Position numbers and translations under genes: made by a program. From Kineobactrum sediminis (GTDB lineage: Bacteria; Pseudomonadota; Gammaproteobacteria; Pseudomonadales; Halieaceae): DNA of 64,000 bases. The stretch covers positions 496,001 to 560,000 of the forward strand of contig NZ_PKLZ01000008.1 in the NCBI RefSeq assembly GCF_002868715.1, written 5' to 3'. The notes under the pieces were generated by a model. That model was not told where the DNA came from. It searched no databases and saw only the letters and a program-made list of their open reading frames with translations. Of the stretch, positions 42,626 to 60,601 are shown piece after piece. Positions within the stretch are counted from its first letter, which is position 1, and each line of letters starts with the position of its first letter.

Positions 42626-43120
42626 CTAGCGCGGTTCGCAAATAAAAACCGGGATATCACGATCCGTCCGAGCCTGGTATTCATCAAAGCCCGGGTAGAG
42701 CGTTAACAGGTGAGGCCATGCTTCGCGTTTCTCATCAGGACTTACTTGCCTGGCCCGGTAAGGTTTTTTAAGCCCGCCAACCATAATTTCAACATCAGGG
42801 TTTGCCGCGATGTTGTAATACCAAACCGGGTTTTTTTCCATACCCCCCTGCGAAGCCACCAGGTATCTATTTTCACCTTGGGGGAGATTAATAAGGGCGA
42901 TCTCACGCGGCTGGCCAGACTTGCGCCCGACCATGGTAACAATACAAATCGGATAACCACCTGGGAAGTTTTTCAATAACCTGCCATTGCTCTTCTTGTA
43001 TACCCAGACGTTGAAACGGGTATAAACCTTCATTACACGCCTTACCAGCGGCACCATTTTGGTCGGAATCTCGTCAACGTCCTCACGGCGGGTTTTGACA
43101 TAGTCAAATTTATTCGTCAT
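42626..43120 (-). CDS. Deazaflavin/F420-type nitroreductase-fold protein
   Basis: The 164-residue protein matches the DUF385 family of split-barrel proteins that bind F420 or FMN. Diagnostic parts are VYKKSNGRLLKNFPGG, a core VTMVGRKSGQPREIALINLP and QGGMEKNPVWYYNIAANPDVEIMVGG. Many bacteria with such genes do not make F420, and the cofactor here is not known. It lies downstream of the efflux operon on the same strand, but with a 95-bp gap and no clear coupling. Confidence 0.82.
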   Translation of the reverse strand: MTNKFDYVKTRREDVDEIPTKMVPLVRRVMKVYTRFNVWVYKKSNGRLLKNFPGGYPICIVTMVGRKSGQPREIALINLPQGENRYLVASQGGMEKNPVWYYNIAANPDVEIMVGGLKKPYRARQVSPDEKREAWPHLLTLYPGFDEYQARTDRDIPVFICEPR

Positions 43121-43215: not shown

Positions 43216-46200
43216 CTACTGGCGGGCACTACCCAACCAACGGTAAACAGCCGGCACGACCAGCATGTTCAGTGCAGTTGCACTTACCAGCCCCCAAAGA
43301 ATTACTACCGCCATGGGAGACTGTATCTCGCTGCCGGGTTCACCGCTGGCCAAAGCCAGGGGCACGAGTGCCAGAGCAGTAGCCGCGGCTGTCATCAGAA
43401 TTGGAATAAGTCGCTCTTCGGCGCCCCGACGAATGGCACTGTCGATATCAAGCCCCTGTTCACGTACCAACCGCCCGATATGATCAACCAGAATTACCCC
43501 GTTGCGAGTAGCAATACCGAACAGGGTGATGAAGCCGATCACCGCCGCGATGGTCAGGATACCCCCGGAAAGCCACACCCCCACGACGCCACCGATCAAC
43601 GCCAACGGCAGGTTCAGCATTACGACACCTGCGTCCCGAGCCGACCCGAATGCCGCCATCAACAGGAAGAATATGCCTACGATCACACCTCCACCCAGCA
43701 GCAACAGGCGAGTATTGGCGGCCTCGGCACTTTCGAACTGACCACCGTACTCGATATGATAGCCGGCGGGCAGCTCGATATTGGTATTGATCGTGCCGCG
43801 AATTTCTTCCACCAGACTGATTAGATCCCTTCCGGCGACATTGGCCATCACGACCATGCGACGCTGTACGTTCTCACGCCCAATTCCGTTCGGGCCGCGC
43901 TCTGTACGGATATCCGCCAAGGCTGCAAAGGGAACAACCGCGCCAGAGGGCAGGGTCAGCAGGGTCTGCTTCACCGCCTCAATATCGTCTCCCGCAGATT
44001 CCTGCAGGCGCACAACCAAATCTATACTCGCCTGCCCTTCGAGTATGCTACCCACCGTAGTGCCAGTAAACGCGGTTTCAAGGGACTCGGCAGCCTCCGC
44101 CATGGTCAGGCCATAATTGGCAAGGGCTGCGCGATCAAACCTGACGCTCACAAAGGGAATCTCACTTTGCTCTTCCATGGCCACGTCAACGGCTCCCGGA
44201 ATGTCTGCGGTGAGAGTCTCTACCTGGAGTCCGAGTCGGCGCAGTTCAGTCAGATCCTCGCCGAAGATCTTGATGGCGATGTTAGCCCGCGTGCCTGAGA
44301 GCATGTGATCGATGCGGTGGGAAATGGGTTGGCCGATGATGACATTGGTACCGGGCAGGCGCGAGAACGCGCCGCGGAGGTCCGCCAACAGTGCTTCCTT
44401 GCTGCGCGACTGCATGGACAGCATGACATCGATTTCCGAAGCGAACACCTGCTGGGCATGAGGATCAAGTTCCGCTCGCCCGGTACGTCGCGCCGTGGCA
44501 ACCACTTCGGGTTGCTCAAGGAGGATCAATTCTACTTTGCGTCCGATCTCATCGGAGGTCTCCAGTGCGGTTCCCGGCAGAGTCACCACACTCAGGGTAA
44601 GGCTACCCTCGTTGAATTCCGGCAAAAATCCCCGTCCAGCCATACCCAGGAATACCACCGCTACCAGCAACAGCAAAAACGCACTGGTCATCACCAGACG
44701 GGGGTACCGCATTGCACCTGACAACATTGGGCGATAGGCCGCTTTCAGCCAACTGATGAATCGGGTGTCGTGATCGTCGCGAACGGTCTTGCTACCAGGC
44801 AATCCCAGCAGACACAGCACCGGGGTGACGGTGAGCGCCACCAGCAGCGACGCAGCCAGTGACACCACATAGGCCAGGCCCAGAGGCTGTAACAGACGCC
44901 CCTCCACCCCACTGAGAAAAAAGAGAGGCAGGAACACCAGGATGATAATGAGCGTGGCGAAGACAATCGAACCTTCGATCTCCCGCGTCGCTTCGAATAC
45001 CACGGTAGCGACATTGCGTTGCCGGTCTTTTGGATGGGCCTGATTCTCCCGCAGGCGCTTGACGATGTTCTCGACCACAATGATGGCGTCATCTACCAGC
45101 GCCCCCACGGCTATGACCATGCCGCCCAACGTCATGGTGTTGATACTGCCGCCCATGGCCTTGATCGTCAGCACTGCCACCAGCAGGGAGAGTGGTATCG
45201 CCACCAGGGCAATACCTGTGGCCCTGGCACTGAACAAAAAGGCGAACATGATGGCTACAACGAGGATGGCGCCATCGCGCAGGGCGACACTGAGATTGTC
45301 GATGGCAGTACCAATGAAGTCCGCCTGGCGGAAAGCGTCGGTTTCTATGGTCATGCCCTCAGGCAAACCCACCTGAATGTCAGCAAATACCCTATCCAGG
45401 CGCCCAGTCAGTTCCAGGGTATTAACCCCCGGCTGCTTCTGGATACCGAGAACCACAGCGGGTTCTCCCTTGTAGGCGCCGGTACCACGCCTGGGCGCGG
45501 GACCGATGCGAACCTCTGCGAGATCGCGAATCAGGATGGGTTCACCGTTGCGACTCTCTACCAGCGCCTGCTCCAGCGACTGAATGTCGGCCACGCGCCC
45601 AATGCCCTGAATCAGAAATTCCTGGTCGTTGCGGGTAATGAATCCCGCCGATGCATTGCGACTGGCGGCAGCGGCAGCTTGCCGCAGGGAATTGAGGGTA
45701 ATGCCATAGGCGGAAAGCCTTTCCGGATCTGCGATGACCTGATACTGCCGGGTTTCACCACCGATGGGGATAACTTCAGCAACGCCCGGCACTGCCAGCA
45801 AGCGCCGCCGTACCACCCAGTCCGCGGTGGTTTTCACGGTCATCTCGTCGTGGGTTTCCGAGCGCAGGGCGATGAACAGGATCTCACCCATAATGGAGGA
45901 CACCGGTGCCAACTGCGGTGGCGGGAGGTCCACGGGCAAGCTGGCCCGCGCCCCTTGCAGCTTCTCCGCCACAATCTGCCGCGCCCGGTAGATGTCCGTG
46001 CCCCATTCGAATTCGACAGTAATAACACTGCTGCCGACGCCGCTGTTGGAGCGGACTCTACGTACCCCCACGGCCCCGTTCATGGCCGTTTCAATCGGGT
46101 GGGTCACCAGCAGCTCTACATCCTCCGGCGGCATGCCGTGCGCCTCGGCGACCACGGTAACCGAGGGCGCAGTCAGGTCCGGAAATACATCCACCGGGGT

Positions 46201-46299
46201 ATTGCGGGCCACTATACTGCCCCAGACCAACAGGGCCAGAGCGCCTACCAGCACCAGCAAGCGGTTGGCCAAAGACCACTGAATTATGCGATCAATCAT
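43216..46299 (-). CDS. HME-type RND metal efflux pump (CusA/CzcA family)
   Basis: The 1027-residue inner-membrane pump has the RND plan of 12 membrane spans and two large periplasmic loops. The transmembrane acidic motif reads VGALVDDAIIVVENI, close to the DFGxxxDGA...EN relay of HME pumps but with DD in place of DG. It should drive proton-coupled export of a metal or other cation through the adaptor and channel encoded upstream. It is the last gene of a six-gene operon, 15 bp after the adaptor stop. Confidence 0.9.
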   Translation of the reverse strand: MIDRIIQWSLANRLLVLVGALALLVWGSIVARNTPVDVFPDLTAPSVTVVAEAHGMPPEDVELLVTHPIETAMNGAVGVRRVRSNSGVGSSVITVEFEWGTDIYRARQIVAEKLQGARASLPVDLPPPQLAPVSSIMGEILFIALRSETHDEMTVKTTADWVVRRRLLAVPGVAEVIPIGGETRQYQVIADPERLSAYGITLNSLRQAAAAASRNASAGFITRNDQEFLIQGIGRVADIQSLEQALVESRNGEPILIRDLAEVRIGPAPRRGTGAYKGEPAVVLGIQKQPGVNTLELTGRLDRVFADIQVGLPEGMTIETDAFRQADFIGTAIDNLSVALRDGAILVVAIMFAFLFSARATGIALVAIPLSLLVAVLTIKAMGGSINTMTLGGMVIAVGALVDDAIIVVENIVKRLRENQAHPKDRQRNVATVVFEATREIEGSIVFATLIIILVFLPLFFLSGVEGRLLQPLGLAYVVSLAASLLVALTVTPVLCLLGLPGSKTVRDDHDTRFISWLKAAYRPMLSGAMRYPRLVMTSAFLLLLVAVVFLGMAGRGFLPEFNEGSLTLSVVTLPGTALETSDEIGRKVELILLEQPEVVATARRTGRAELDPHAQQVFASEIDVMLSMQSRSKEALLADLRGAFSRLPGTNVIIGQPISHRIDHMLSGTRANIAIKIFGEDLTELRRLGLQVETLTADIPGAVDVAMEEQSEIPFVSVRFDRAALANYGLTMAEAAESLETAFTGTTVGSILEGQASIDLVVRLQESAGDDIEAVKQTLLTLPSGAVVPFAALADIRTERGPNGIGRENVQRRMVVMANVAGRDLISLVEEIRGTINTNIELPAGYHIEYGGQFESAEAANTRLLLLGGGVIVGIFFLLMAAFGSARDAGVVMLNLPLALIGGVVGVWLSGGILTIAAVIGFITLFGIATRNGVILVDHIGRLVREQGLDIDSAIRRGAEERLIPILMTAAATALALVPLALASGEPGSEIQSPMAVVILWGLVSATALNMLVVPAVYRWLGSARQ

Positions 46300-46314
46300 G
46301 CGCGGTCTCCGGGG

Positions 46315-47841
46315 TCAATGAGCGTGGCCATGGCCAATGTCATCGCCGCCGGCTGCGGCCAGCCTGACGTAGTAGGCGCCTTCACTCACCACCCGCTCGC
46401 CCGCGCTCACCCCGCGCAGTACTTCCACCCAGAGTCCGTCGATCATGCCGGTTTCCACCACCCGGCGGGCAAAGGTCTCGCCACTGGTCTGCACATACAC
46501 CACCTGGCGACCACCGTCGTCCACCAGGGACGAACGCGGCACCGCAAGGCGAGACTCCGGGGCGCTGGTAAACACACGCGCCGGGTACCGGCTGCCAAGC
46601 AGCGTTGGTCCCTGCGTTGAGGGGTATTCCAGGGTCACGCTGGCCGTGCGAGTTTCGGGCTCTATCGCCGTCACGACCTGCACGATGCTGGCGCCGCTGT
46701 CGGCGTCGAGAATCGTCGGACTGGCGCTGGGAAGCTCCAGCCACAGGCCGCTCGCTCCGGACAAATCACGGGCGAAATGTTCTGCAACCCTGACCTGCAG
46801 CCAGCGACGCTCCCGCTCGGCAATCCGGAACACTCGATCGCCTTCACTCACCATCGCTCCGGGGCGAACGCGGCTCTCCACGACTTGGCCAGACACCGGT
46901 GCCCTGAGAGCGATGCCCGCAGCATCATCGCCACCCAGGCGCTGATCCACTCGTGCCTGGGCTGTGCGCACTTCCGCTTCGGCTATGGCATGCGCTTGCC
47001 TGGCCTCGTGGAGACGCCGCTCTGGAACCGCGCCCTGTGCAACCAGACCCGTGACCCGCTGCAGCTCCCGGTCGCTGAGCTCAAGCTCGCTGCGTGCCCG
47101 TTGCAGCGCGACCAGGGCATCGCCCCAATCCCTGCCTACACCAAGGCGGGGCACCAAAAATCCCAACACGTCACCGGCGGCCACGGTCATCCCGGCCTTC
47201 GCAATATCGACGCCGGCAAAATACCCGTCCTCGGGGGCAAGGATAACGGCGCCACCGTCAATAGGGGCCATCACCGTCGCAAACCCCGGTACCGAGGGCC
47301 GCAGAGGACGCTCGGCGACCACTGCGGTGGCAAAGTTGGCCTCCCACTGCTGCTCCTTGAGGTAACTGATATCTCCTTCAGGCTCGGCCTGATGAACGTC
47401 CACCTGATCAGCTGTTGGATAAACCCTGACACTGCCCAGATCATGGGTGGCGTTCAACTCAGGCCCACTCAGCTTTATCAGCAACTGATATTCGCCCGCA
47501 TTGCGCGGCGTGATCTCCGGAGTGAACAAACCGTCCCGAGTGGGTGCTGAGACTCTGAACCGGGCCACGGTCTGCCTCGCTTTTACCAGAAGTGCATCCA
47601 CTGTGCCCTCTCTGACCGGCGTGTAGTCTGCCATGCGAGTGAAATGCGCCAGGGCCCGGGACGTCTCATCCGCAATCAGCGGCGGGAACTCTACGAAGAG
47701 TTCCGTCGTCTCTGTGTAATGGGTGTATACCAGAGGCTCCGGGCCATGGGCGTCGTGCTCCTCGCCGCTGTGATCGTGGTCGGAGCAGGAGGCCAGAAGG
47801 AGCAGAAGCGCACTGGCAAGAATACGCCGCTCAATGGTCAT
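46315..47841 (-). CDS. Membrane fusion (adaptor) lipoprotein of the RND system
   Basis: The 508-residue adaptor has a lipobox at ALLLLLASC (acylated Cys19), followed by a His/Glu/Asp-rich segment (DHDHSGEEHDAHG). An N-terminal domain of about 130 residues precedes the usual HlyD-type hairpin (VALQRARSELELSDRELQRV), lipoyl-like (RAPVSGQVVESRVRPGAMVSEGD) and barrel domains. The C-terminus ends GHGHAH. The His-rich ends suit periplasmic metal capture. The start at 47841 overlaps the previous gene by 11 bp. It joins pump and TolC-like channel. Confidence 0.88.
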   Translation of the reverse strand: MTIERRILASALLLLLASCSDHDHSGEEHDAHGPEPLVYTHYTETTELFVEFPPLIADETSRALAHFTRMADYTPVREGTVDALLVKARQTVARFRVSAPTRDGLFTPEITPRNAGEYQLLIKLSGPELNATHDLGSVRVYPTADQVDVHQAEPEGDISYLKEQQWEANFATAVVAERPLRPSVPGFATVMAPIDGGAVILAPEDGYFAGVDIAKAGMTVAAGDVLGFLVPRLGVGRDWGDALVALQRARSELELSDRELQRVTGLVAQGAVPERRLHEARQAHAIAEAEVRTAQARVDQRLGGDDAAGIALRAPVSGQVVESRVRPGAMVSEGDRVFRIAERERRWLQVRVAEHFARDLSGASGLWLELPSASPTILDADSGASIVQVVTAIEPETRTASVTLEYPSTQGPTLLGSRYPARVFTSAPESRLAVPRSSLVDDGGRQVVYVQTSGETFARRVVETGMIDGLWVEVLRGVSAGERVVSEGAYYVRLAAAGGDDIGHGHAH

Positions 47842-48196
47842 GCTGGTGTTCGGCGCCATCACTGTGGGTATGGCCAGCCCCTTGCTGCGACTCTGATGGT
47901 TCCGCCTCCAGCTCGGGTGCCGACATGGCTTCGGGGGACTGTGTCTCTGCCGGTTCGCCGTAGAAGGCTTCAGTGGCTGGCGCCGCATCATCAGTGTGGG
48001 CCTCTTCTCCATGTTCATGCGCCTCGGCTTGAGACTCATGTTCATGGCCGTGATCGTCACTGACTTTTGCGTCACAGCCTCCCAGCAGCAACGCCGCCGA
48101 CAGCAGCAAAATTCCCGACAGAGCCCTCTGGAGGCAACTTGTTGTGCCGATCTCCCTGATGTCTGCTGTGCTCACATAACCAAGTTTCATCATCAT
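47831..48196 (-). CDS. His-rich metal-binding lipoprotein
   Basis: The 121-residue protein has a lipobox (LLSAALLLGGC, Cys41) and an unusual composition: HGHEHESQAEAHEHGEEAH just after the lipid anchor and HTHSDGAEHQHDH at the end, with an Ala/Glu-rich middle. It should sit at the membrane surface and bind divalent metal, perhaps as a buffer feeding the efflux pump. It is coupled on both sides: its start overlaps the TolC-like stop (48193-48196) and its end overlaps the adaptor start by 11 bp. Several in-frame ATGs make the exact start uncertain by a few residues. Confidence 0.78.
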   Translation of the reverse strand: MMMKLGYVSTADIREIGTTSCLQRALSGILLLSAALLLGGCDAKVSDDHGHEHESQAEAHEHGEEAHTDDAAPATEAFYGEPAETQSPEAMSAPELEAEPSESQQGAGHTHSDGAEHQHDH

Positions 48197-49377
48197 TCTC
48201 CGGTGAAAGTTTGCCAGTCGATGTAGGCCTGTCTCGCGGCCAAGGAACTGCTGATCAATTGCAGTTGTGTATTCAGCTCAGCGCGCCAGGCATCCATCAG
48301 CTCCATAACGGAAATTTCCCCGGCTTCGTAGGCCGCCTCGGCCATGCCAATCAGACCCTGGGATTGCTCGCGACCCAGGGCATCCACTGCGCCGATACTT
48401 GCCTGCCAGCGCCGCACTATGGCTCTGGCCTCAACCAGCAGACGCTGCTCTTCAAGCTGACGCTCCACCGTGATTAACCGGGAGCGTTCTTTCGCTGTAT
48501 TTTTCCGACCCTGTCCGCGGTCGAACAAGGGCAGCTCGATACCCAGCGAGATCATGGTACCGTCGGCCTGCATACCCGGTTGCCGGCTTTCCTTGTAACC
48601 CAGGCCCAGACTGACCTGGGGCCAACGCTCGCGGTTCGCCGCTTCCTGCAACTGCGCCGCACTGTCAGCCTCAGCGCCCAGTGCATCAAGCAGGGGGTGA
48701 CGGCCCACAAGTGACGGCAAACTATCGGGCGGAGCACCGGGCGGCAGCACCTGGCCAAGTAGTTCGAAGCTCTCCTGGCCTGTCAGTGTCGCGAGCCCAT
48801 CGCGAGCGGATTCTGCTTCACTACTCACCGCCAGCGACTCGCCTTCCAGCAGGGCCAGCTCCCGCGCAACCCGGGTCTCATCGTAGCGGGACACATCACC
48901 GGCCTGAACCCGGGCCGCGATCGCCAGCGCCAGTTCTTCCAGGCGCGCCTGCCAGCGCTTGACTTCACGCTGACGTCGCTTGGCAGCCATGGCGGAATAA
49001 AAGACTTCGCGCACCTGGGACACAAGCTCCCGCTTGCTTAACTCAATACGCGCCTGTTCCGCCTCCATGTCCAGACTGGCCGACAATCGTTCGAGTCGCT
49101 TCACCCCAGCGAGATCGAAGCGCTGGCGAACCAGGAAACTGTTTTCATCGACTGATCCGCCGGCATAGTCCAGCGATTCCCAGTCATATTCAATTTCGGG
49201 ATTGTCCCAACGACCGGCAGACTCTACGCGTCCCCGAGCGATACCGCGCCGGGCGTCCAGCTGGTTGGTAATCGCGGGACGGCGCAGCGCCTGCTCAACA
49301 GCCTCGTACTCCGCCAGGCCGGAAGCGAGTAGCGAACCACTGACCAAGAACAGGATTGAACCGAGGATCAGCCTCAC
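48193..49377 (-). CDS. TolC/CusC-like outer membrane channel
   Basis: The 394-residue protein belongs to the TolC family and has a signal peptide (MRLILGSILFLVSGSLLASG). The body is long amphipathic helices with repeated Glu/Ala/Leu, including the duplicated pattern of two hairpins (VREVFYSAMAAKRRQREVKR and ARAIVRRWQASIGAVDALG). It would form the outer-membrane exit duct for the RND pump. The start is GTG at 49377, one base after the M56 gene's stop codon. It lacks an obvious lipobox. Confidence 0.85.
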   Translation of the reverse strand: MRLILGSILFLVSGSLLASGLAEYEAVEQALRRPAITNQLDARRGIARGRVESAGRWDNPEIEYDWESLDYAGGSVDENSFLVRQRFDLAGVKRLERLSASLDMEAEQARIELSKRELVSQVREVFYSAMAAKRRQREVKRWQARLEELALAIAARVQAGDVSRYDETRVARELALLEGESLAVSSEAESARDGLATLTGQESFELLGQVLPPGAPPDSLPSLVGRHPLLDALGAEADSAAQLQEAANRERWPQVSLGLGYKESRQPGMQADGTMISLGIELPLFDRGQGRKNTAKERSRLITVERQLEEQRLLVEARAIVRRWQASIGAVDALGREQSQGLIGMAEAAYEAGEISVMELMDAWRAELNTQLQLISSSLAARQAYIDWQTFTGE

Positions 49378-49378
49378 A

Positions 49379-50347
49379 TCACCCCCCGGTCAGCCAATAG
49401 GCAAGAGTTTCCATACCGTGGTGATAGTAACTTCCCACCAGTACCACTCCGACCAGTGAGCAGAGACAGAGCGCTTCAAGCCACGGAGAACTTGGCTGTC
49501 GTACCGTAGAAGGCGCCAGCAGACGCTGGATACGGTGAATCGTCCCGGCTCCAGACATGGAGAACATTCCCGAACTATTTGTCCTGCTGACCCTCGCTAC
49601 CTGGATCAGTGTTTCTGCCACGGCCTCCCGGCCAAACTGTTCGACCGCACTGTCGTCCGCGCTTTCTTCCAGCGCCTGTCGCCAGTGATCGCGAAGCTTT
49701 TTTGCCTGCCAGAAGGGATGAATGGCCAGCATTACTTCGAAAATGACATTGCGCAATGTATCGCCACGACGAAGGTGAGCCACTTCGTGAGCCAGCACCA
49801 CGCGACGCTGGCGAGGGGTCAGTCGAGCAAGCAAGCCACGGGAGAGTAATACAAAAGAATCGCGGACTCCGACCGCCAGGGCCAGCGGAGTAACATCATC
49901 AAGGATACGCAACTTGCGGCGGCCCTGGGAGAGGCGGGACAATGTGGCGACTCTCTTATGCAAACCTCTCTCACGTACAGCAATGCGAGTCCAGTTGAAG
50001 CCCACCAAAAACAGAAGAATGCCCACGACGGTCAACTCAACCGCCCCAGACGCAAGCAAATATTCACTGGAAGAGCAGGCATGCAGGTGTCCGTGGCTGT
50101 GCGATGAACAATGGGCTCCCTGACGATATATGGCATCAAAAAGAGAAGCGCTGTTTACGGTGAGCACCAGCAGTATTGCCCATATCCAGGGCAACCCGGC
50201 GAGCAGCATGAGTCGCCGCTCGCGAATGGAGGGAGCAGGGTCACTACGCCACGCATTCGCGAGATAAAGCGACACGGCAATGACACCGAACCCCCATGCA
50301 ATCAGTGCAACCAGGGCGAACGGCCAGAGCAGATTGACCCAGTCCAT
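49379..50347 (-). CDS. BlaR1-like M56 metallopeptidase with His/Cys-rich loop
   Basis: The 322-residue protein has about four membrane spans (near residues 5-30, 45-66, 103-120 and 285-305). The zinc protease motif VLAHEVAHLRRGD (H187, E188, H191) lies in the large cytosolic loop between spans 3 and 4, with a Glu in EESADDSAVEQFG as probable third ligand. No penicillin-binding sensor domain follows. Instead the loop between spans 2 and 3, periplasmic in BlaR1, reads AHCSSHSHGHLHACSS (H79, C80, H83, H85, H87, H89, C91), a strong metal-binding candidate. I infer that metal binding triggers cleavage of the neighbouring BlaI-type repressor. Confidence 0.85.
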   Translation of the reverse strand: MDWVNLLWPFALVALIAWGFGVIAVSLYLANAWRSDPAPSIRERRLMLLAGLPWIWAILLVLTVNSASLFDAIYRQGAHCSSHSHGHLHACSSSEYLLASGAVELTVVGILLFLVGFNWTRIAVRERGLHKRVATLSRLSQGRRKLRILDDVTPLALAVGVRDSFVLLSRGLLARLTPRQRRVVLAHEVAHLRRGDTLRNVIFEVMLAIHPFWQAKKLRDHWRQALEESADDSAVEQFGREAVAETLIQVARVSRTNSSGMFSMSGAGTIHRIQRLLAPSTVRQPSSPWLEALCLCSLVGVVLVGSYYHHGMETLAYWLTGG

Positions 50348-50351
50348 ACCG

Positions 50352-50759
50352 CTAGACTCCTCTGCTCCCGCGACGCGATTTCAATTCGTTTTCAAGCGCC
50401 TGCAATGCGTCCCCGTCCAGCTGCTCAGCAACTTCAACAAATGCGGCCAGAGACGATACCTTGTCGTTTTCGAAGCGTTGGAGTACCTCGTTGATCAGTC
50501 CTGCAAGGAGTTTCTCTCGCGGTACCCGGGCACTGTAATGAAAGGCGTAGCTGATTTTCTCGCGGTTCAGAAGCTGCTTGCGAAAGAGCCTGTCCAGGGT
50601 CGACTGGATGGTATTCAAGGCCAAGCCTCTTTCGACGCCCAGCTCGGCATGAACCTGTTTGACACTCGCTTCCGGTGTTCGCCAGACAAACTCCAGTACA
50701 GCGATTTCCAAATCACCCAACGAGGAGAGCCCGGGGGTACTGTTCGTGTTCAAATCCAT
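50352..50759 (-). CDS. BlaI/MecI/CopY-family repressor
   Basis: The 135-residue repressor has a winged-helix DNA-binding half (LGDLEIAVLEFVWRTPEASV through NTIQSTLDRLFRKQLLNREK) and a C-terminal dimerisation helix region (LINEVLQRFENDKV). It should repress the operon by binding its own promoter and be inactivated by the neighbouring protease, as for BlaI-BlaR1 and MecI-MecR1. The ATG at 50759 is preferred to an upstream ATG at 50813, which adds an unmatched leader. An inverted repeat overlaps the promoter 70 bp upstream. Confidence 0.85.
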   Translation of the reverse strand: MDLNTNSTPGLSSLGDLEIAVLEFVWRTPEASVKQVHAELGVERGLALNTIQSTLDRLFRKQLLNREKISYAFHYSARVPREKLLAGLINEVLQRFENDKVSSLAAFVEVAEQLDGDALQALENELKSRRGSRGV

Positions 50760-50822
50760 AAAATCTCGGCTTGCGTAGTCAGAAAGCGGAATGAGGGAAC
50801 ACCCCTTTCTCAATGGTGAAGC

Positions 50823-50862
50823 ACGCTATAGGTCATAAAACCCATTGTCAATCGGTTTTATG
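50823..50862 (-). promoter_or_regulatory. Operator-promoter of the blaI-efflux operon
   Basis: The 11-bp arms GTCATAAAACC (50830-50840) and GGTTTTATGAC (50852-50862) are perfect inverted complements with an 11-base spacer that is itself nearly palindromic. On the minus strand a perfect TTGACA lies in the spacer (50844-50849), and TATAGC (50823-50828) could be the -10, though the spacing (15) is short. A bound BlaI-type dimer would cover the -35. Confidence 0.72.
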
Positions 50863-50973
50863 ACTGACCGGGTCGGGAATGCTCCAAGCCGGGCAAGGAT
50901 CGCTTGCCCGTGAACAGCTCGGTACCACGCGCCCGGGATTCATCGGCACCGCCCCTCCCGTCTCGAAGGGATC

Positions 50974-53377: not shown

Positions 53378-53411
53378 ATGATGTCAGAATTATATATAAT
53401 TCTGACATCAT
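53378..53411. promoter_or_regulatory. 34-bp perfect palindrome before the antitoxin gene
   Basis: The left arm ATGATGTCAGAATTATA (53378-53394) and the right arm TATAATTCTGACATCAT (53395-53411) are exact inverted complements with no spacer. TATAAT (53395-53400) could be the -10 element, with the gene starting at 53426, so repression by a bound protein is plausible. Confidence 0.8.
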
Positions 53412-53425
53412 CCAGAGATGCCCCA

Positions 53426-54022
53426 ATGAAGACCTTACCCGAAACCATCCTTCGACATGCCCGCTCCCTCCCCGAGGGTGGCGTGCTATCGCCTAAAGAA
53501 TTCCTGCACCTCGGAAGCCGAGCCGCTGTTGATCAGGCGTTCTCACGGCTGACCAAAGGAGGCAATCTGATGCGCGTGGCGCGCGGCACCTACGTGGCCC
53601 CGGTTTCAAGCAGGTTTGGGACTCGCGCACCCGCGCCTGAAAAGGTTATACGGTCGCTGGCAGAGCGAAGCGGTGAAACCGTGGTTCGGCACGGCGCAAA
53701 CTCAGCTAACGCTCTGGGCCTGACCCAGCAGGTACCCATCAAGGAGGTTTACTTGACGTCCGGTCGCACCCGAAAGCTCAAGCTGGGCAAGGGGGAAGTC
53801 CTGATCAAGCACACCCCCCGCTGGATGCTGATGCTTGGACCGCGGCCTGCCGGCGAGGCCGTCCGGGCGTTGGCCTGGATCGGATCGACACATGCCGATG
53901 CATCCCTGGCATCGCTGCATCGCACTCTTCCCCCGGCCGAATGGAGAGCGTTGACATTGGCCCGCGCTGCCCTCCCTTCCTGGATGGCTCAGGCCATCGG
54001 AAAGGAAGGGGCGCATGCCTGA
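53426..54022 (+). CDS. DUF6088/AbiEi-like antitoxin
   Basis: The 198-residue protein has an N-terminal winged-helix part (LPETILRHARSLPEGGVLSP then GSRAAVDQAFSRLTKGGNL and VARGTYVAPV), the usual AbiEi/DUF6088 arrangement, followed by a helical C-terminal domain. AbiEi-type antitoxins repress their own promoter and counteract the AbiEii nucleotidyltransferase toxin. The ATG at 53426 lies 14 bp after the palindrome; an earlier ATG inside the palindrome (53378) is excluded. The stop overlaps the toxin gene start by 8 bp. Confidence 0.82.
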   Translation: MKTLPETILRHARSLPEGGVLSPKEFLHLGSRAAVDQAFSRLTKGGNLMRVARGTYVAPVSSRFGTRAPAPEKVIRSLAERSGETVVRHGANSANALGLTQQVPIKEVYLTSGRTRKLKLGKGEVLIKHTPRWMLMLGPRPAGEAVRALAWIGSTHADASLASLHRTLPPAEWRALTLARAALPSWMAQAIGKEGAHA

Positions 54023-54915: not shown

Positions 54916-56157
54916 ATGACAAAGCGAGACCACCTACCGGGGAAGTTAAAACCGATATCATTGAAGGGCCTGCCAAATGGCTGGCATGCCGATGGTGGAA
55001 ATTTATACCTGTTCGTGAGGGGGAATAGCCGTAACTGGATCTTCCGGTATGTGGCACCTGACGGCACCCGCCGAAATATGTCATTGGGCCCGTTGAGGGG
55101 CCTCACTCTGGCTCGGGCCAGAGACGTGGCCCGAGAGTTGGTGATCAAGGTTAAAGACCCCGTCAACCCAATTGACCCTATGCGCGAGGCCCAGTCGAAG
55201 CGCCAAGAAGAAAAAGCCACTGAAGAGTTCAAGCGTACATTTAAACAGTGTGCAGATGCCTTTATCGAGTCAAAGCGGCACGGATGGAAGAACGCCAAAC
55301 ATGCTTCGCAGTGGGAAGCGACGCTGAACACCTACGTCTACCCCAAAATTGGCAGTATGGCAGTTAATGAGATAGATACACCACATATAGTCTCCGTCCT
55401 GGAACCTATTTGGCACGTCAAGTCGGAAACTGCGTCCCGGGTGCGGAGCCGTATGGAGAATATCATCAGCTGGGCGACGGTCAGTAAGTTCCGGGAAGGT
55501 GAGAACCCCGCCAGGTGGCGCGGCCACCTGGACCATATATTCCCCCCTGTACGCAAGGTCACCGCAGTCAAACACCACCCCGCTTTACCCTACCATCGAT
55601 TACCTGAGTTTATTACGATACTCAGAAAGCGTGCCGGCATGGGCGCCAGAGCATTGGAGTTTACAATATTAACGGCTGCGCGATCGGGTGAAGTACGCGG
55701 CGCAACATGGGACGAGATCAATCTCAACCAGGGTACGTGGACCATACCCGGCAGCCGCATGAAAACAGGGAAAGAACACCGCGTACCGCTAACCGATGCG
55801 GCGATTGAGCTGCTCCAAGCGCTCCCACGAGTGGCAAAAAACCCTCTCGTGTTTCCAGGCAGCAAGAATGGCGCCCCGATGTCGGATATGTCGCTAACCG
55901 CTGTTTTAAGGCGGATAGGTGAACAGGAGATTACGGTCCATGGATTCCGGTCCACGTTCCGCGACTGGTCTGCAGAGCAGACAACCTACCCCCGGGAGGC
56001 CTGCGAGCTGTGCCTGGCGCATACGGTCGGGGATGCTGTGGAGCGCGCCTATCGCCGGGGCGATCTCTTCGATCTACGGAAACAGCTTATGGCAGACTGG
56101 GCGAGCTTCTGCTCGTCGAGCAATCGTGATATCAATTGTACGCACCGGAAAAACTAA
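54916..56157 (+). CDS. P4-type tyrosine integrase
   Basis: The 413-residue recombinase has an N-terminal arm-binding (DUF4102-type) region (LKGLPNGWHADGGNLYLFVR and GLTLARARDVARELV), a core-binding domain and a catalytic domain. Catalytic residues are Arg in TAARSGEVRGATW, His-x-x-Arg in VHGFRSTFRDW, a His in LAHTVGDAV and Tyr in ERAYRRGD. It would integrate and excise the element at an attachment site, often in a tRNA. GGAGAGGG precedes the ATG. Orientation is away from the presumed left end. Confidence 0.92.
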   Translation: MTKRDHLPGKLKPISLKGLPNGWHADGGNLYLFVRGNSRNWIFRYVAPDGTRRNMSLGPLRGLTLARARDVARELVIKVKDPVNPIDPMREAQSKRQEEKATEEFKRTFKQCADAFIESKRHGWKNAKHASQWEATLNTYVYPKIGSMAVNEIDTPHIVSVLEPIWHVKSETASRVRSRMENIISWATVSKFREGENPARWRGHLDHIFPPVRKVTAVKHHPALPYHRLPEFITILRKRAGMGARALEFTILTAARSGEVRGATWDEINLNQGTWTIPGSRMKTGKEHRVPLTDAAIELLQALPRVAKNPLVFPGSKNGAPMSDMSLTAVLRRIGEQEITVHGFRSTFRDWSAEQTTYPREACELCLAHTVGDAVERAYRRGDLFDLRKQLMADWASFCSSSNRDINCTHRKN

Positions 56158-56178
56158 TAGCTAAGACGGGACGGAAAA

Positions 56179-57006
56179 ATGGGTAACCAGAGAAAAAAAA
56201 ACGACCTTCGTGCTATCGGTTGCGATGGAAAAAAAGACTCGCCCGAGGCCACTGCACGCATCAGACATTTGAAGTGGCTAGAGAAAAAGGGGGTACTCGA
56301 CCGAGTGCTTGATGTCATCTTGTCTGAACTTGAACCCGAACAGGGTATCCTCGGAAGGGAGGCACTTGAAACTGAGCAGGATGTCTTACCAGTGGAATCT
56401 CTTCTCCACGGATCGGCTCTCATTGAAGGTTTACGTAGCGCTGGTATGCGTCTCGACGATGGCACCTTAACCACACCGTTTTTGGCGTGCTACGAGAAAT
56501 TTTGCGGATACGATCATGTAAGCAATATTATTGACTATTCCCCTGCAACCATCGAAAGGGGCGATCACCCCGCGTGGGATATACTCATCGGTCTTGAGCA
56601 CCCCCCCCAGGGACAGACGACAGAGGAAAATAACGATAACCGTCCAGCGGAGAAGATTAGCGTGCTAACAGAAGCTACGACTAGGGCCCGTCACTCCGGC
56701 GGCCAGCCCGGGAGAGTGTATGTCTATAACAAAGTGGTAGACATGATTATCGATGATATTTTGAAAGGTCACCCAGAAATCTCACCTGCAGATGCTTGGG
56801 ATCGATTCTACCAACGGGCGCCAGGCTGGCAAGATTTCTACCATCAGGACGACAACACCTTTGCAATTACCTTCGAACCAGGCCCTCCCGGAAGTAGGCC
56901 GCCATGCCTGGCGCTCAGCTACTGGACAACACACTTCGAATCGAGGAAAACGGAGTATACGAAGGCGACATTCAGTAGACGCCTAAGGAAGCAGCGACCG
57001 CGCTGA
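56179..57006 (+). CDS. Unknown protein of the integrative element
   Basis: The 275-residue protein, 21 bp after the integrase, starts with a charged stretch (MGNQRKKNDLRAIGCDGKK). It contains a helical part (HLKWLEKKGVLDRVLDVILSEL) and a later HPEISPADAWDRFYQRAPGWQDF segment, and ends in basic RRLRKQRPR. No domain is recognised. Its place suggests a satellite regulator or replication accessory factor; this is only inferred. Confidence 0.6.
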   Translation: MGNQRKKNDLRAIGCDGKKDSPEATARIRHLKWLEKKGVLDRVLDVILSELEPEQGILGREALETEQDVLPVESLLHGSALIEGLRSAGMRLDDGTLTTPFLACYEKFCGYDHVSNIIDYSPATIERGDHPAWDILIGLEHPPQGQTTEENNDNRPAEKISVLTEATTRARHSGGQPGRVYVYNKVVDMIIDDILKGHPEISPADAWDRFYQRAPGWQDFYHQDDNTFAITFEPGPPGSRPPCLALSYWTTHFESRKTEYTKATFSRRLRKQRPR

Positions 57007-57465
57007 ACGTAAGTTTTCCTCTACCAAAACTCTTCGACAGACGAGGACACGGTCGGAAAGCAGTCATAGAACAGAAGTTCACTGGATACCAAACCACCCC
57101 CACATAAGAGAGCTTGGCATATCGGAGCGTGGCTGCTACCTACTATCGAAGGCAGCAGTAGCCTCAGTTACCACCAGATCCCACTGATTTGCAATGGACC
57201 CTCGGGACGCGGCTAAACTTATCTGGCCGCCCTTCTACCCCCTTCCCGATATGATCTCCGGCCAGCTAACGTAGCACGATATCCCTCAGCTGATGAATTA
57301 CCCCCCTCCCCCGCTTCATTTCATATCTAGCTCCGCCTAGCCCGGTTGAGGCATACCTCATGGGCGGACGCGTAGTCGGTCGTGTAGCTATTTTTCTATG
57401 CGTAGCGCTACGCATCCGGTGGCCGTTGTTTAATGGCGTCAACACCCGAAACGCGGAGCAATCGC
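57007..57465. promoter_or_regulatory. Intergenic region with an 18-bp palindrome before alpA
   Basis: No supported gene in 459 bases. A perfect 18-bp palindrome (ATGCGTAGCGCTACGCAT, 57398-57415) sits 50 bp before the alpA start and is a candidate operator. The remaining sequence is moderately AT-rich and holds the alpA promoter. Confidence 0.6.
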
Positions 57466-57669
57466 ATGCATTCACATCAGCAAGACCGCCTCCTGCGCTG
57501 GCCTGAAGTCCAGAGCATGACAGGCATATCCCGCACTACAGCCTGGCGCCTAGAAAAGCGGTGCCAGTTCCCGAGGAGCCTTCAGATCAGTACGCGCACA
57601 GTGGCGTGGCGAGCAACCGATATCCAGGCATTCATCGCATCAAGACAGCCAGCAGGGGGAAATAAATGA
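57466..57669 (+). CDS. alpA: AlpA-family regulator
   Basis: The 67-residue protein has the AlpA/MerR-like helix-turn-helix: LLRWPEVQSMTGISRTTAWRLEKRC with FPRSLQISTRTVAWRATDIQAFIASR. AlpA proteins switch on excision or integrase expression in P4-type satellites. The ATG at 57466 is used; the frame opens further upstream (57433) without homology. Its TGA overlaps the ATG of the next gene (ATGA). Confidence 0.85.
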   Translation: MHSHQQDRLLRWPEVQSMTGISRTTAWRLEKRCQFPRSLQISTRTVAWRATDIQAFIASRQPAGGNK

Positions 57670-58454
57670 TGCCGATCATGTCAGTTTTTTCAGGTCCACA
57701 TCACTTCTACTCAACCAACACGACAAAGGCGACACAACCCATGAAAACTACCCGCAATCATCCAATCACGGATTCCATCATTAACCTCCTGGCCAAACGC
57801 ACTATCAGGCCTAGAGGCTCTGATATAAGCCGGAGCCTACCCTACAAAATAATCAATCCCATCCTCTCCGGCGGATCACGTGAAGCCTTTTACTACAACA
57901 ACGACATATGGAATGCGTGCGCTGACCATGGGCATGATGCGCGGTTTCTCAAGCCGCTAAAGACAACATGCCATATAAAGGCACTATTAAGGGCAGAGCT
58001 ATTAGCAGAAACCCGCGCCGTGTTGTGCTGCGAGCACAGAAATGCCTACAGCCGAGCGTTAAGCGCCATGGACTTCCATAGCAAAGTACAACACGCAGTG
58101 GCAGTTTCAGAACTAGCCGAATATCCAGGCTGTCCGAATACGATCACGGAGCTCGCCGCCAGAACTGACATCAAGATGCTTGTAGATATAGCGAGCCCAA
58201 GCCTCAAAAACGTCCCCCGAGAAATATGCCAGCAGGATATCGCTCTCTTTAAAGCAGCGCTGAGCACTGGGCCTAAAACCTCAGATGAACTGAGGACACT
58301 CGGCATTCAGTACCCCGCTAGCGTGGCCAGCAGGCTGGACAAAACCAAGTTTGAAGTAACTACGGTTGAAATTGCCGATTACGAGTTTGATTGGGATGAT
58401 CAAAACCAAATCGCCATATCCTACAGCCTCCTAGAAATGGGGGGCCAACAATGA
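57666..58454 (+). CDS. Unknown protein of the integrative element
   Basis: The 262-residue protein overlaps both neighbours by four bases (ATGA), so it is translationally coupled between alpA and the primase gene. It has basic segments near the N-terminus and Leu-rich helices (SVQHAVAVSELAEY-like stretches around residue 135-150) and ends YSLLEMGGQQ. No domain is recognised. A later ATG at 57741 is an alternative start. Its position suggests a replication accessory factor. Confidence 0.6.
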   Translation: MMPIMSVFSGPHHFYSTNTTKATQPMKTTRNHPITDSIINLLAKRTIRPRGSDISRSLPYKIINPILSGGSREAFYYNNDIWNACADHGHDARFLKPLKTTCHIKALLRAELLAETRAVLCCEHRNAYSRALSAMDFHSKVQHAVAVSELAEYPGCPNTITELAARTDIKMLVDIASPSLKNVPREICQQDIALFKAALSTGPKTSDELRTLGIQYPASVASRLDKTKFEVTTVEIADYEFDWDDQNQIAISYSLLEMGGQQ

Positions 58455-60601
58455 GCGACGCAGCCCGCTTCATAGACCACCTCGCCAGTAACCCCGGCGA
58501 CACACACACCTTCCAAGTGATACCGCTCAAAGCGGGCCAGCCCAGGATACTGCATGGCACACTGTCCAAAGTGCAGGACCAGCTCGGCCAATTAAACGCC
58601 GCTGGAATGGGCATTTTTGCTTGCGTCAATGAAACTGACGGCAAAGGGCGAAGCGCGGCAAATATTACCAGGGTAAGATCCCTTTTTCTTGATCTGGACG
58701 GCCCGCCGCTCGAACCCGTACTGTCTGCGGGCCTGCAGCCGCATATGATTGTGGAAAGCAGCCGGGGGAAATGGCACGCCTACTACCTGGTCAGCGATTG
58801 CAACCTGGACGAGTTCACCACGTTACAGCGGCGCCTCGCTGCCAGGTTCAATGGAGATCCGTCAGTAAATGACCTGCCGCGCATAATGCGCGTCCCAGGG
58901 TATTACCACAGGAAGCTCGACAAGGTCACGGGCAAGCTCTCTGAGCCTTTCTTGACCAGAATTGAGAGACTGTCCCATCATCCTGCCTATACCGTGGAGA
59001 CAATAACCCGTGGGCTAGAACTGTACGAGGAACCTCCAGAGGCGGCGTCAGCCGCAAGTTTACCGCCATTCAAGCCAGAGCAGGTCTACCACGACGGCCA
59101 ACGCACCAGCGCGCTGGCAAGCTATGCCGGTCGGCTCATTAGCCAGGGGTGCAGCGACGATGAGGCAGTGGCAATACTCACTGACTGGAATAAAACGTGC
59201 TGCAGCCCTCCTCTTCCCACGAAAAAGGTCCAAATGACCTACGCGTCAATCAAGAAAACCGACGCTCGGAAGCGGGCAGAGGCCCGCGTAGTACCCAAGG
59301 AGATAGCGGCACTGAACCGGGACCATGCGGTCGTTACGGTCGGCGGCAAAACCCTCGTGCTGCGTGAACGGGAACGCGGGGTGGACTTCATGGGGCCCTC
59401 CGATTTTCGAAATTTTTATAATAACCATCAGTTTGAAGGTAAACCCCTAGGCAGTTGTTGGATGAGCCACCCTACTCGCCGGTCATATTCGGACATCACC
59501 TTCGACCCTTCCACCACGGCGGCGAACGACGATGTCTACAACCTATGGCGAGGACTCGACGTGGAACCGCGCTCCGGAGATTGCTCCCTGTTCCTGGAGC
59601 ACCTTCGTGTCAACATATGCTCCGGTAATGACGCGTGCTATGACTACCTGCTGAACTGGATGGCTCATCTCGTCCAGTTCCCGGGAAAATTACCAGGTGT
59701 CGCGGTCGTCATGAAAGGACGGCAGGGTACCGGAAAGGGTGTGGTGGCATTAAACTTTGGCCGTATTTTTGGTAACCATTTCCGGCATGTAACCAGCCGT
59801 GAGCACCTGCTGGGGCGCTTTAACGGCCATCTCCAGAATGCTGTTCTTGTATTTGCAGACGAGGTCATTTGGGGAGGCAACAAAGAGCAGGAAGGCACCC
59901 TCAAGACTTTGATCACAGAACCCCGGCGGCAGTACGAGCAAAAATATCAAGGCGTGATTGAGCTGGGCAACTACACCCGAGTCATCATGGCGACCAATAG
60001 TGACTGGGCCGTCCCTGCCGGTTTAGAGGAGCGTCGATTTTTCGTGCTGCAAGTGGCCGATACACACATCCAGGACCACACGTATTTCGCCACACTACAG
60101 CAACAGATGGACACTGGTGGCCGGGAGGCGCTGCTGCACGAACTGCTGAGCCGAGACCTATCTGGCGTAGAAATCCGGCAGTTTCCGCGCACCGCTGCCC
60201 TGGCCGAGCAAAAAGAACTATCATTGTCGTCGGTTGAACGCTGGTGGCTTGACGTGCTTGACGAAGGCGGCATTGGCCCTTGCGATAGTAGTGGCAACCT
60301 CGAGTCGGCAGCAGCATTTAGTGCTCATAGGCAGAACGCATGGCCTGCTTTTGCTGGCTCAGGCCGCCTCCATGACTACTACCTCAATAACGCCAGGAAA
60401 CTCGGGGAACGTTACCCATGCACCCTGGCTATATTCGGTAAAAAAATAAAAAGTTTCGTTAACCTGAGTCCCACGCGACCCACGGTTGATGGCAGACGGG
60501 TGAAGGGATACCTGATGCCCACGCTCTCCGCAGCCAGACGCCAGTTTGAACAGGCGCTGGGGCAGCCACATGACTGGGGGGAACAGGATAACGACGCGTG
60601 A
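58451..60601 (+). CDS. Primase-helicase of the integrative element
   Basis: The 716-residue protein has an N-terminal RepB-like/archaeo-eukaryotic primase region (SLFLDLDGPPLEPV with LPRIMRVPGYYHRKLDK) and a C-terminal DUF5906-type/SF3-like helicase. The helicase has Walker A MKGRQGTGKGVVALN near residue 420, Walker B AVLVFADEVIWGG and sensor IMATNSDWAVP. It is expected to initiate replication of the element autonomously, as P4 alpha does. The iteron-like repeats after its stop support this. It starts four bases inside the previous gene. Confidence 0.88.
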   Translation: MSDAARFIDHLASNPGDTHTFQVIPLKAGQPRILHGTLSKVQDQLGQLNAAGMGIFACVNETDGKGRSAANITRVRSLFLDLDGPPLEPVLSAGLQPHMIVESSRGKWHAYYLVSDCNLDEFTTLQRRLAARFNGDPSVNDLPRIMRVPGYYHRKLDKVTGKLSEPFLTRIERLSHHPAYTVETITRGLELYEEPPEAASAASLPPFKPEQVYHDGQRTSALASYAGRLISQGCSDDEAVAILTDWNKTCCSPPLPTKKVQMTYASIKKTDARKRAEARVVPKEIAALNRDHAVVTVGGKTLVLRERERGVDFMGPSDFRNFYNNHQFEGKPLGSCWMSHPTRRSYSDITFDPSTTAANDDVYNLWRGLDVEPRSGDCSLFLEHLRVNICSGNDACYDYLLNWMAHLVQFPGKLPGVAVVMKGRQGTGKGVVALNFGRIFGNHFRHVTSREHLLGRFNGHLQNAVLVFADEVIWGGNKEQEGTLKTLITEPRRQYEQKYQGVIELGNYTRVIMATNSDWAVPAGLEERRFFVLQVADTHIQDHTYFATLQQQMDTGGREALLHELLSRDLSGVEIRQFPRTAALAEQKELSLSSVERWWLDVLDEGGIGPCDSSGNLESAAAFSAHRQNAWPAFAGSGRLHDYYLNNARKLGERYPCTLAIFGKKIKSFVNLSPTRPTVDGRRVKGYLMPTLSAARRQFEQALGQPHDWGEQDNDA

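Follow-up and report, generated by a model that had tools for sequence, protein, structure and literature searches.

A run of six genes on the minus strand was found at positions 50759-43216 of a 64,000-nucleotide stretch of the Kineobactrum sediminis contig NZ_PKLZ01000008.1, here called the window. In transcriptional order, it encoded a BlaI-type repressor of 135 residues (50352..50759), a short BlaR1-type membrane protease of the M56 family with 322 residues (49379..50347), a TolC/OEP-family outer-membrane channel of 394 residues with a GTG start (48193..49377), a His-rich lipoprotein of 121 residues (47831..48196), an RND periplasmic adaptor, likewise a lipoprotein and with a His-rich N-terminus (46315..47841), and an HME-type RND permease of 1027 residues (43216..46299). 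Gaps of 4, 1 and 15 nucleotides separated blaI from the M56 gene, the M56 gene from the channel gene and the adaptor gene from the pump gene. The channel and lipoprotein genes overlapped by 4 nucleotides and the lipoprotein and adaptor genes also overlapped, so that the six genes almost certainly form a single transcription unit. An earlier note on this DNA had described such a tight run, which was borne out by the layout of the open reading frames (ORFs), the junctions and the curated family matches; repressor, protease, channel, adaptor and permease all passed the cut-offs of curated models. The start of blaI is likely ATG 50759 rather than the mechanical ORF start TTG 50813, and the adaptor probably starts at ATG 47841, later than its mechanical ORF start. 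Inclusion of the F420-dependent reductase-like gene (42626-43120) in the operon was unsupported, with a gap of 95 nucleotides and no counterpart of this arrangement in relatives.

The protease matched PF05569 with 38.5 bits (cut-off 31) and carried HEVAH at residues 187-191. H187, E188, H191 and E227 were invariant in its aligned relatives. Four membrane helices were indicated by hydropathy and by an AlphaFold2 model (predicted template-modelling score, pTM, 0.83). The top Foldseek matches of this model were the cryogenic electron microscopy structures 8exq, 8exs, 8exp and 8ext of Staphylococcus aureus BlaR1 with a probability of 1.00, at modest E-values of 1.5e-3 to 6e-3 and template-modelling scores (query) of 0.35-0.41. 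The chain ended at residue 322, just past helix 4, where BlaR1 enters its penicillin-binding domain, and no C-terminal penicillin-binding domain was detected by the Pfam search. The claim that the antibiotic sensor domain is absent was thereby upheld, and beta-lactam sensing by this protein was rejected on the same ground. According to the positive-inside rule, residues 66-100 and 300-322 are placed outside and the protease domain inside. Peptide patterns retrieved no close relatives of the window M56 from genome_contigs or viral_contigs.

A short periplasmic loop of the M56 protein, which had gone unmentioned in the earlier note, held seven His/Cys residues (YRQGAHCSSHSHGHLHACSSSEY, residues 74-96, codons 50060..50128 on the minus strand). 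It is proposed as a metal site on the basis of conservation and topology. In an alignment of the window M56 with eleven relatives, retrieved by a whole-protein search that made no use of the loop, C80 and C91 were invariant and H79, H87 and H89 were kept at 90% or more. The C-terminal periplasmic tail (residues 309-322, codons 49382..49423, minus strand) carried an HHxxE motif, of which H309, H310 and E313 were invariant in an 18-sequence set. Every short M56 among the 44 neighbourhoods that were fully read had His/Cys at the loop position, mostly in one of three classes: DHCxxHxxHxHLC (class I), HWHH...SWH without Cys (class II) and HCHxxxCxxH (class III). As a control, the corresponding stretch of 19 long BlaR1-like M56s held 0-3 His/Cys residues, which were scattered rather than clustered, and pump genes were absent beside these M56s within the short loci examined. 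A DNA scan of genome_contigs with the loop motif only gave 37 places, 24 of which encode an M56, including loci from Pleionea, Marinimicrobium, Gilvimarinus, Cellvibrionaceae, Lysobacterales, Rhodospirillales and Myxococcota. At 20 of the 24, the fetched stretch included genes for a channel, adaptor or pump; three of the other four were cut by the end of the locus or contig and one was truly without pump genes. The loop was selected in this set, where evidence therefore comes only from the neighbouring genes and the HHxxE tail.

The same residues allow a different input. The conserved C80-C91 pair could act as a redox switch, and the related BlaR1 and MecR1 answer cell-wall drugs (PMC7593790), so the M56 protein might sense a non-metal signal, either envelope or peptidoglycan stress or the redox state, with the pump as part of a general response. 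This was judged unlikely, because the window M56 of 322 residues is without a penicillin domain, the class without Cys keeps its His cluster, and the RND pumps that follow the regulator pair were metal-type HME pumps in the relatives where this was tested.

The repressor matched PF03965 with 79.1 bits (cut-off 22.6) and comprised a winged helix plus a dimerisation region. It aligned over nearly its whole length with the MecI and BlaI structures, the MecI alignment spanning residues 18-129 of the submitted BlaI stretch. S. aureus BlaI is cut between N101 and F102 (PMC3305447); the equivalent position was A/S-F in most family members and lay in AAFVEV in the window protein. BlaI and CopY share a superfamily, which could suggest that BlaI itself senses the metal in the manner of CopY and that the protease merely clears or tunes it. 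The score against the CopY model TIGR02698 was 42.8 bits, far under the cut-off of 121.95, and the window BlaI held no Cys and two His. Direct CopY-type sensing, which would call for a CxC metal site, was therefore rejected, and a metal-sensing role of BlaI as such was considered very improbable.

Upstream of blaI, a 33-bp inverted repeat was recognised as the operator (50832..50864, minus strand) by sequence matching, comparison with relatives and shuffle controls. It reads GTCATAAAACC-GATTGACAATG-GGTTTTATGAC, centred on the -35-like TTGACA, and the end coordinate of the earlier note, 50862, takes in most of it. The operator core AAAACCGATTGACAATGGGTTTT lies at 50837-50859; across relatives, the core is the palindrome AAAACCGATTGnCAATCGGTTTT over the -35 box of blaI with TTGACA in mid-site. 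The pattern matched once in the window and never in 100 shuffles. One site with three or fewer mismatches was present in the 4.06-Mb genome, and a reversed-pattern control gave none in ten genomes. The best site upstream of blaI scored at least 17/22 in 30 of the 33 pump-linked loci, compared with 0 of 3250 first-order Markov shuffles. A strict sigma-70 scan reported no promoter at this position, where the -35 TTGACA is perfect and the -10 box weak or oddly spaced. Many relatives carried a second operator copy where the channel gene begins, mostly in signal-peptide codons (KNRLxxGF), a DNA stretch that appears to double as operator and coding sequence; neither the window operon nor genome G247, a class relative, had this second copy. 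It was observed at loci L014-L017, L109, L120-L124, L127, L133, L136, L137, L140 and L141. The window operator differs from the TACA/TGTA type known for BlaI, MecI and CopY.

The channel matched PF02321 with 75.2 bits and the adaptor matched TIGR01730 with 113 bits (cut-off 94.9) and TIGR00999 with 102 bits. With 817 bits against TIGR00914 and a cut-off of 701.45, the permease was confirmed as the HME-type RND pump that had been claimed. A second HME permease was present in the same genome (G000:C11:3592-6699, locus L195), scoring 1266 bits against TIGR00914. The His-rich lipoprotein showed the lipobox LLGGC and 11 His in 121 residues and matched no Pfam or NCBIfam family. Permease residues were compared with those of CusA, SilA, CzcA, CnrA and NccA. 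In CusA, Cu(I) is bound by the Met triad M573, M623 and M672 (PMC8092243); the corresponding columns of the window permease held S, A and H, and E625 was kept. With the Met triad absent, transport of Cu(I) or Ag(I) in the manner of CusA was disfavoured. The DFGxxxDG(A) motif in helix 4 of CzcA, CnrA and NccA was not found in the window permease, which has AVGALVDDAIIVVEN there; its clade carries SHRIDHMLSG. A divalent metal of the Zn/Cd/Co class is probable, because His and Glu occur in the permease site and Czc-type pumps stand behind the same regulator elsewhere.

The gene order was not unique to the window. Genome G247 had all six genes in order, with 71% identity for the pump and 31% for the protease. 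The same order occurred in Lysobacterales bacterium SP244, in several Cellvibrionaceae-type genomes, some of them cut by the fetched stretch, and in Myxococcota, which disposed of the earlier reservation that it might be found only here. Between channel (or protease) and adaptor, a His-rich lipoprotein with a TEAFYG-like motif, as in the window, recurred in relatives. Short His-rich lipoproteins of this kind were also noted at loci L139, L072, L050, L061, L063, L064, L070, L084 and L049, and no NCBIfam entry matched the two TEAFYG-like lipoproteins tested. According to annotation, blaI-M56-TolC-adaptor-CusA/CzcA clusters were carried on plasmids of Shewanella, Pseudoalteromonas and Pseudomonas, the last from a human-swab isolate of Pseudomonas aeruginosa. 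No study of these plasmid clusters was found in the open literature. Class II pump clusters often extended with HupE/UreJ_2 and DUF6488 and some had DUF3147 nearby (L016, L017, L120-L123, L127, L137); genes for these three families were not part of the window operon.

The gene set, its coupling, the operator, the loop, the fold and their conservation are observed directly, and together they make it likely that the operon is a metal-efflux system under a BlaR1/BlaI-type proteolytic switch with metal instead of penicillin as input. The BlaR1 signalling steps (PMC7593790) served as the template for the proposed mechanism. Without metal, a BlaI dimer would occupy the palindrome that covers the -35 box, keeping all six genes repressed. 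Divalent metal building up in the periplasm, most likely of the Zn, Cd or Co class, would bind the His/Cys loop between helices 2 and 3, probably joined by the HHxxE tail past helix 4. The resulting change in loop and tail would be relayed to the cytoplasmic zinc-protease domain, and the activated M56 would cut BlaI near the Phe that matches the N101-F102 site of S. aureus BlaI. Derepression of the operon would follow, and the metal would be exported by channel, adaptor and RND pump; the His-rich lipoprotein would serve as a periplasmic buffer or delivery protein. For the window operon, we infer metal binding, BlaI cleavage, the direction of the response and the identity of the metal.

A sister branch of the regulator was linked to different cargo. 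Eighteen short M56 loci were without a pump, and 16 of them encoded an orthologous TonB-dependent receptor divergently beside blaI (E <1e-150), an ortholog found in 0 of 23 pump-linked loci. The M56 loop of this branch was of class III, HCHxxxCxxH. Thus, the cargo tracked the loop class, I and II with export and III with a usually importing receptor, and this pairing supports a role in metal traffic. The sister-branch loci were L107, L108, L110, L112, L114-L119, L125, L126, L128, L129, L135 and L138; neighbouring genes encoded PepSY and ferric-reductase-like proteins at L115 and DUF1775 at L129.

This branch is also among the points that weigh against a metal-activated switch. An importer would be an odd target for derepression by metal, and activation of the protease by metal may therefore not hold for the whole regulator family. 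The window loop is a divergent version (HCSSHSHGHLHAC) in which D78, H86 and H94 of the relatives are changed, and it was modelled with a predicted local distance difference test score (pLDDT) near 50. The two conserved loop Cys could pair as a disulfide, yet class II keeps its His without Cys. The same pump clade was found without BlaI-M56 on a Magnetospirillum plasmid, and the loci are related by descent, so that the counts are not independent. The logic might even be reversed: loop-bound metal would keep the protease off and shortage would activate it, efflux being under another signal or the operon serving housekeeping. Derepression on shortage fits the class III relatives beside the TonB-dependent receptor better. 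For the window operon it is very unlikely, since an exporter made under shortage would not be sensible, and several pump-linked relatives are plasmid-borne, a frequent situation for acquired metal resistance. The metal switch proposed in the earlier note gained independent support from the His/Cys loop, the operator and the pairing with metal pumps, and may have to be limited where the TonB-receptor branch is concerned.

Other features of the window lay outside the operon. An AbiEi-like gene was present at 53378-54022. The stretch 54916-60601, of lower G+C, contained an integrase-like gene (54916-56157) and a gene for a primase/helicase-like protein (58451-60601), both named by eye, and is probably an integrated element adjoining the operon.

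Proteolysis of the BlaR1 type is taught as a means of sensing antibiotics, and how M56 proteases get switched on is still debated for BlaR1. Among open-licence papers, none was found that describes an M56 protease sensing metal. Relatives that share the loop, operator and pump genes are spread across many bacteria, and judged from sequence, the window operon therefore seems to represent a neglected application of the antibiotic-sensing BlaR1 design to metal. A wider proposal is that short M56 proteases are widespread one-protein transmembrane metal sensors, whose loops read different metals or levels and in which BlaI proteolysis controls either outer-membrane metal export (DHCxxHxxHxHLC, HWHH..SWH) or TonB uptake (HCHxxxCxxH); its chances of being right or wrong appear evenly balanced. 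If the metal-switch reading is right, Gram-negative bacteria would widely use the BlaR1 machine for periplasmic metal, passing the signal straight to a repressor without a kinase, and the 322-residue sensor with one operator and one operon would offer a small system for studying how M56 proteases are switched on. It would also bear on plasmid-borne metal-resistance gene sets, including that of the human-swab P. aeruginosa isolate.

Compared with known systems, the window set resembled BlaR1-BlaI and MecR1-MecI of S. aureus in having the HExxH domain of its M56 protein between helices 3 and 4 and, next to the M56 gene, a gene for a winged-helix repressor of the BlaI family; BlaR1 was the closest fold match of the M56 protein in the PDB. 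The set differed from them in the His/Cys loop and HHxxE tail in place of a C-terminal penicillin-binding domain, in an operator of the AAAACCGATTG type and in a metal pump as target. The system would work like BlaR1-BlaI but lacks the sensor domain by which that system is defined. With CopY and TcrY, it shares a BlaI-superfamily repressor over metal export, but CopY binds the metal itself, whereas the window BlaI contains no Cys and has a protease as its partner. Tripartite HME-RND metal efflux by channel, adaptor and permease is common to the window operon, CusCFBA of Escherichia coli and CzcCBA, CnrCBA and NccCBA of Cupriavidus, and some of these systems likewise have a small metal-binding helper protein. 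Unlike the window operon, they are controlled by two-component systems or sigma/anti-sigma sets, and the window permease has neither the Met triad of CusA nor the DFGxxxDG of CzcA, CnrA and NccA. The plasmid clusters of Shewanella, Pseudoalteromonas and Pseudomonas agreed with the window in the regulator pair, the order of the pump genes and the operator. They differed in their CzcA-type pump, often followed by HupE/UreJ and DUF6488, and a lipoprotein of the window type was not identified in them; the loop of the Shewanella and Pseudoalteromonas plasmids was of the HWHH type without Cys, unlike that of the window.

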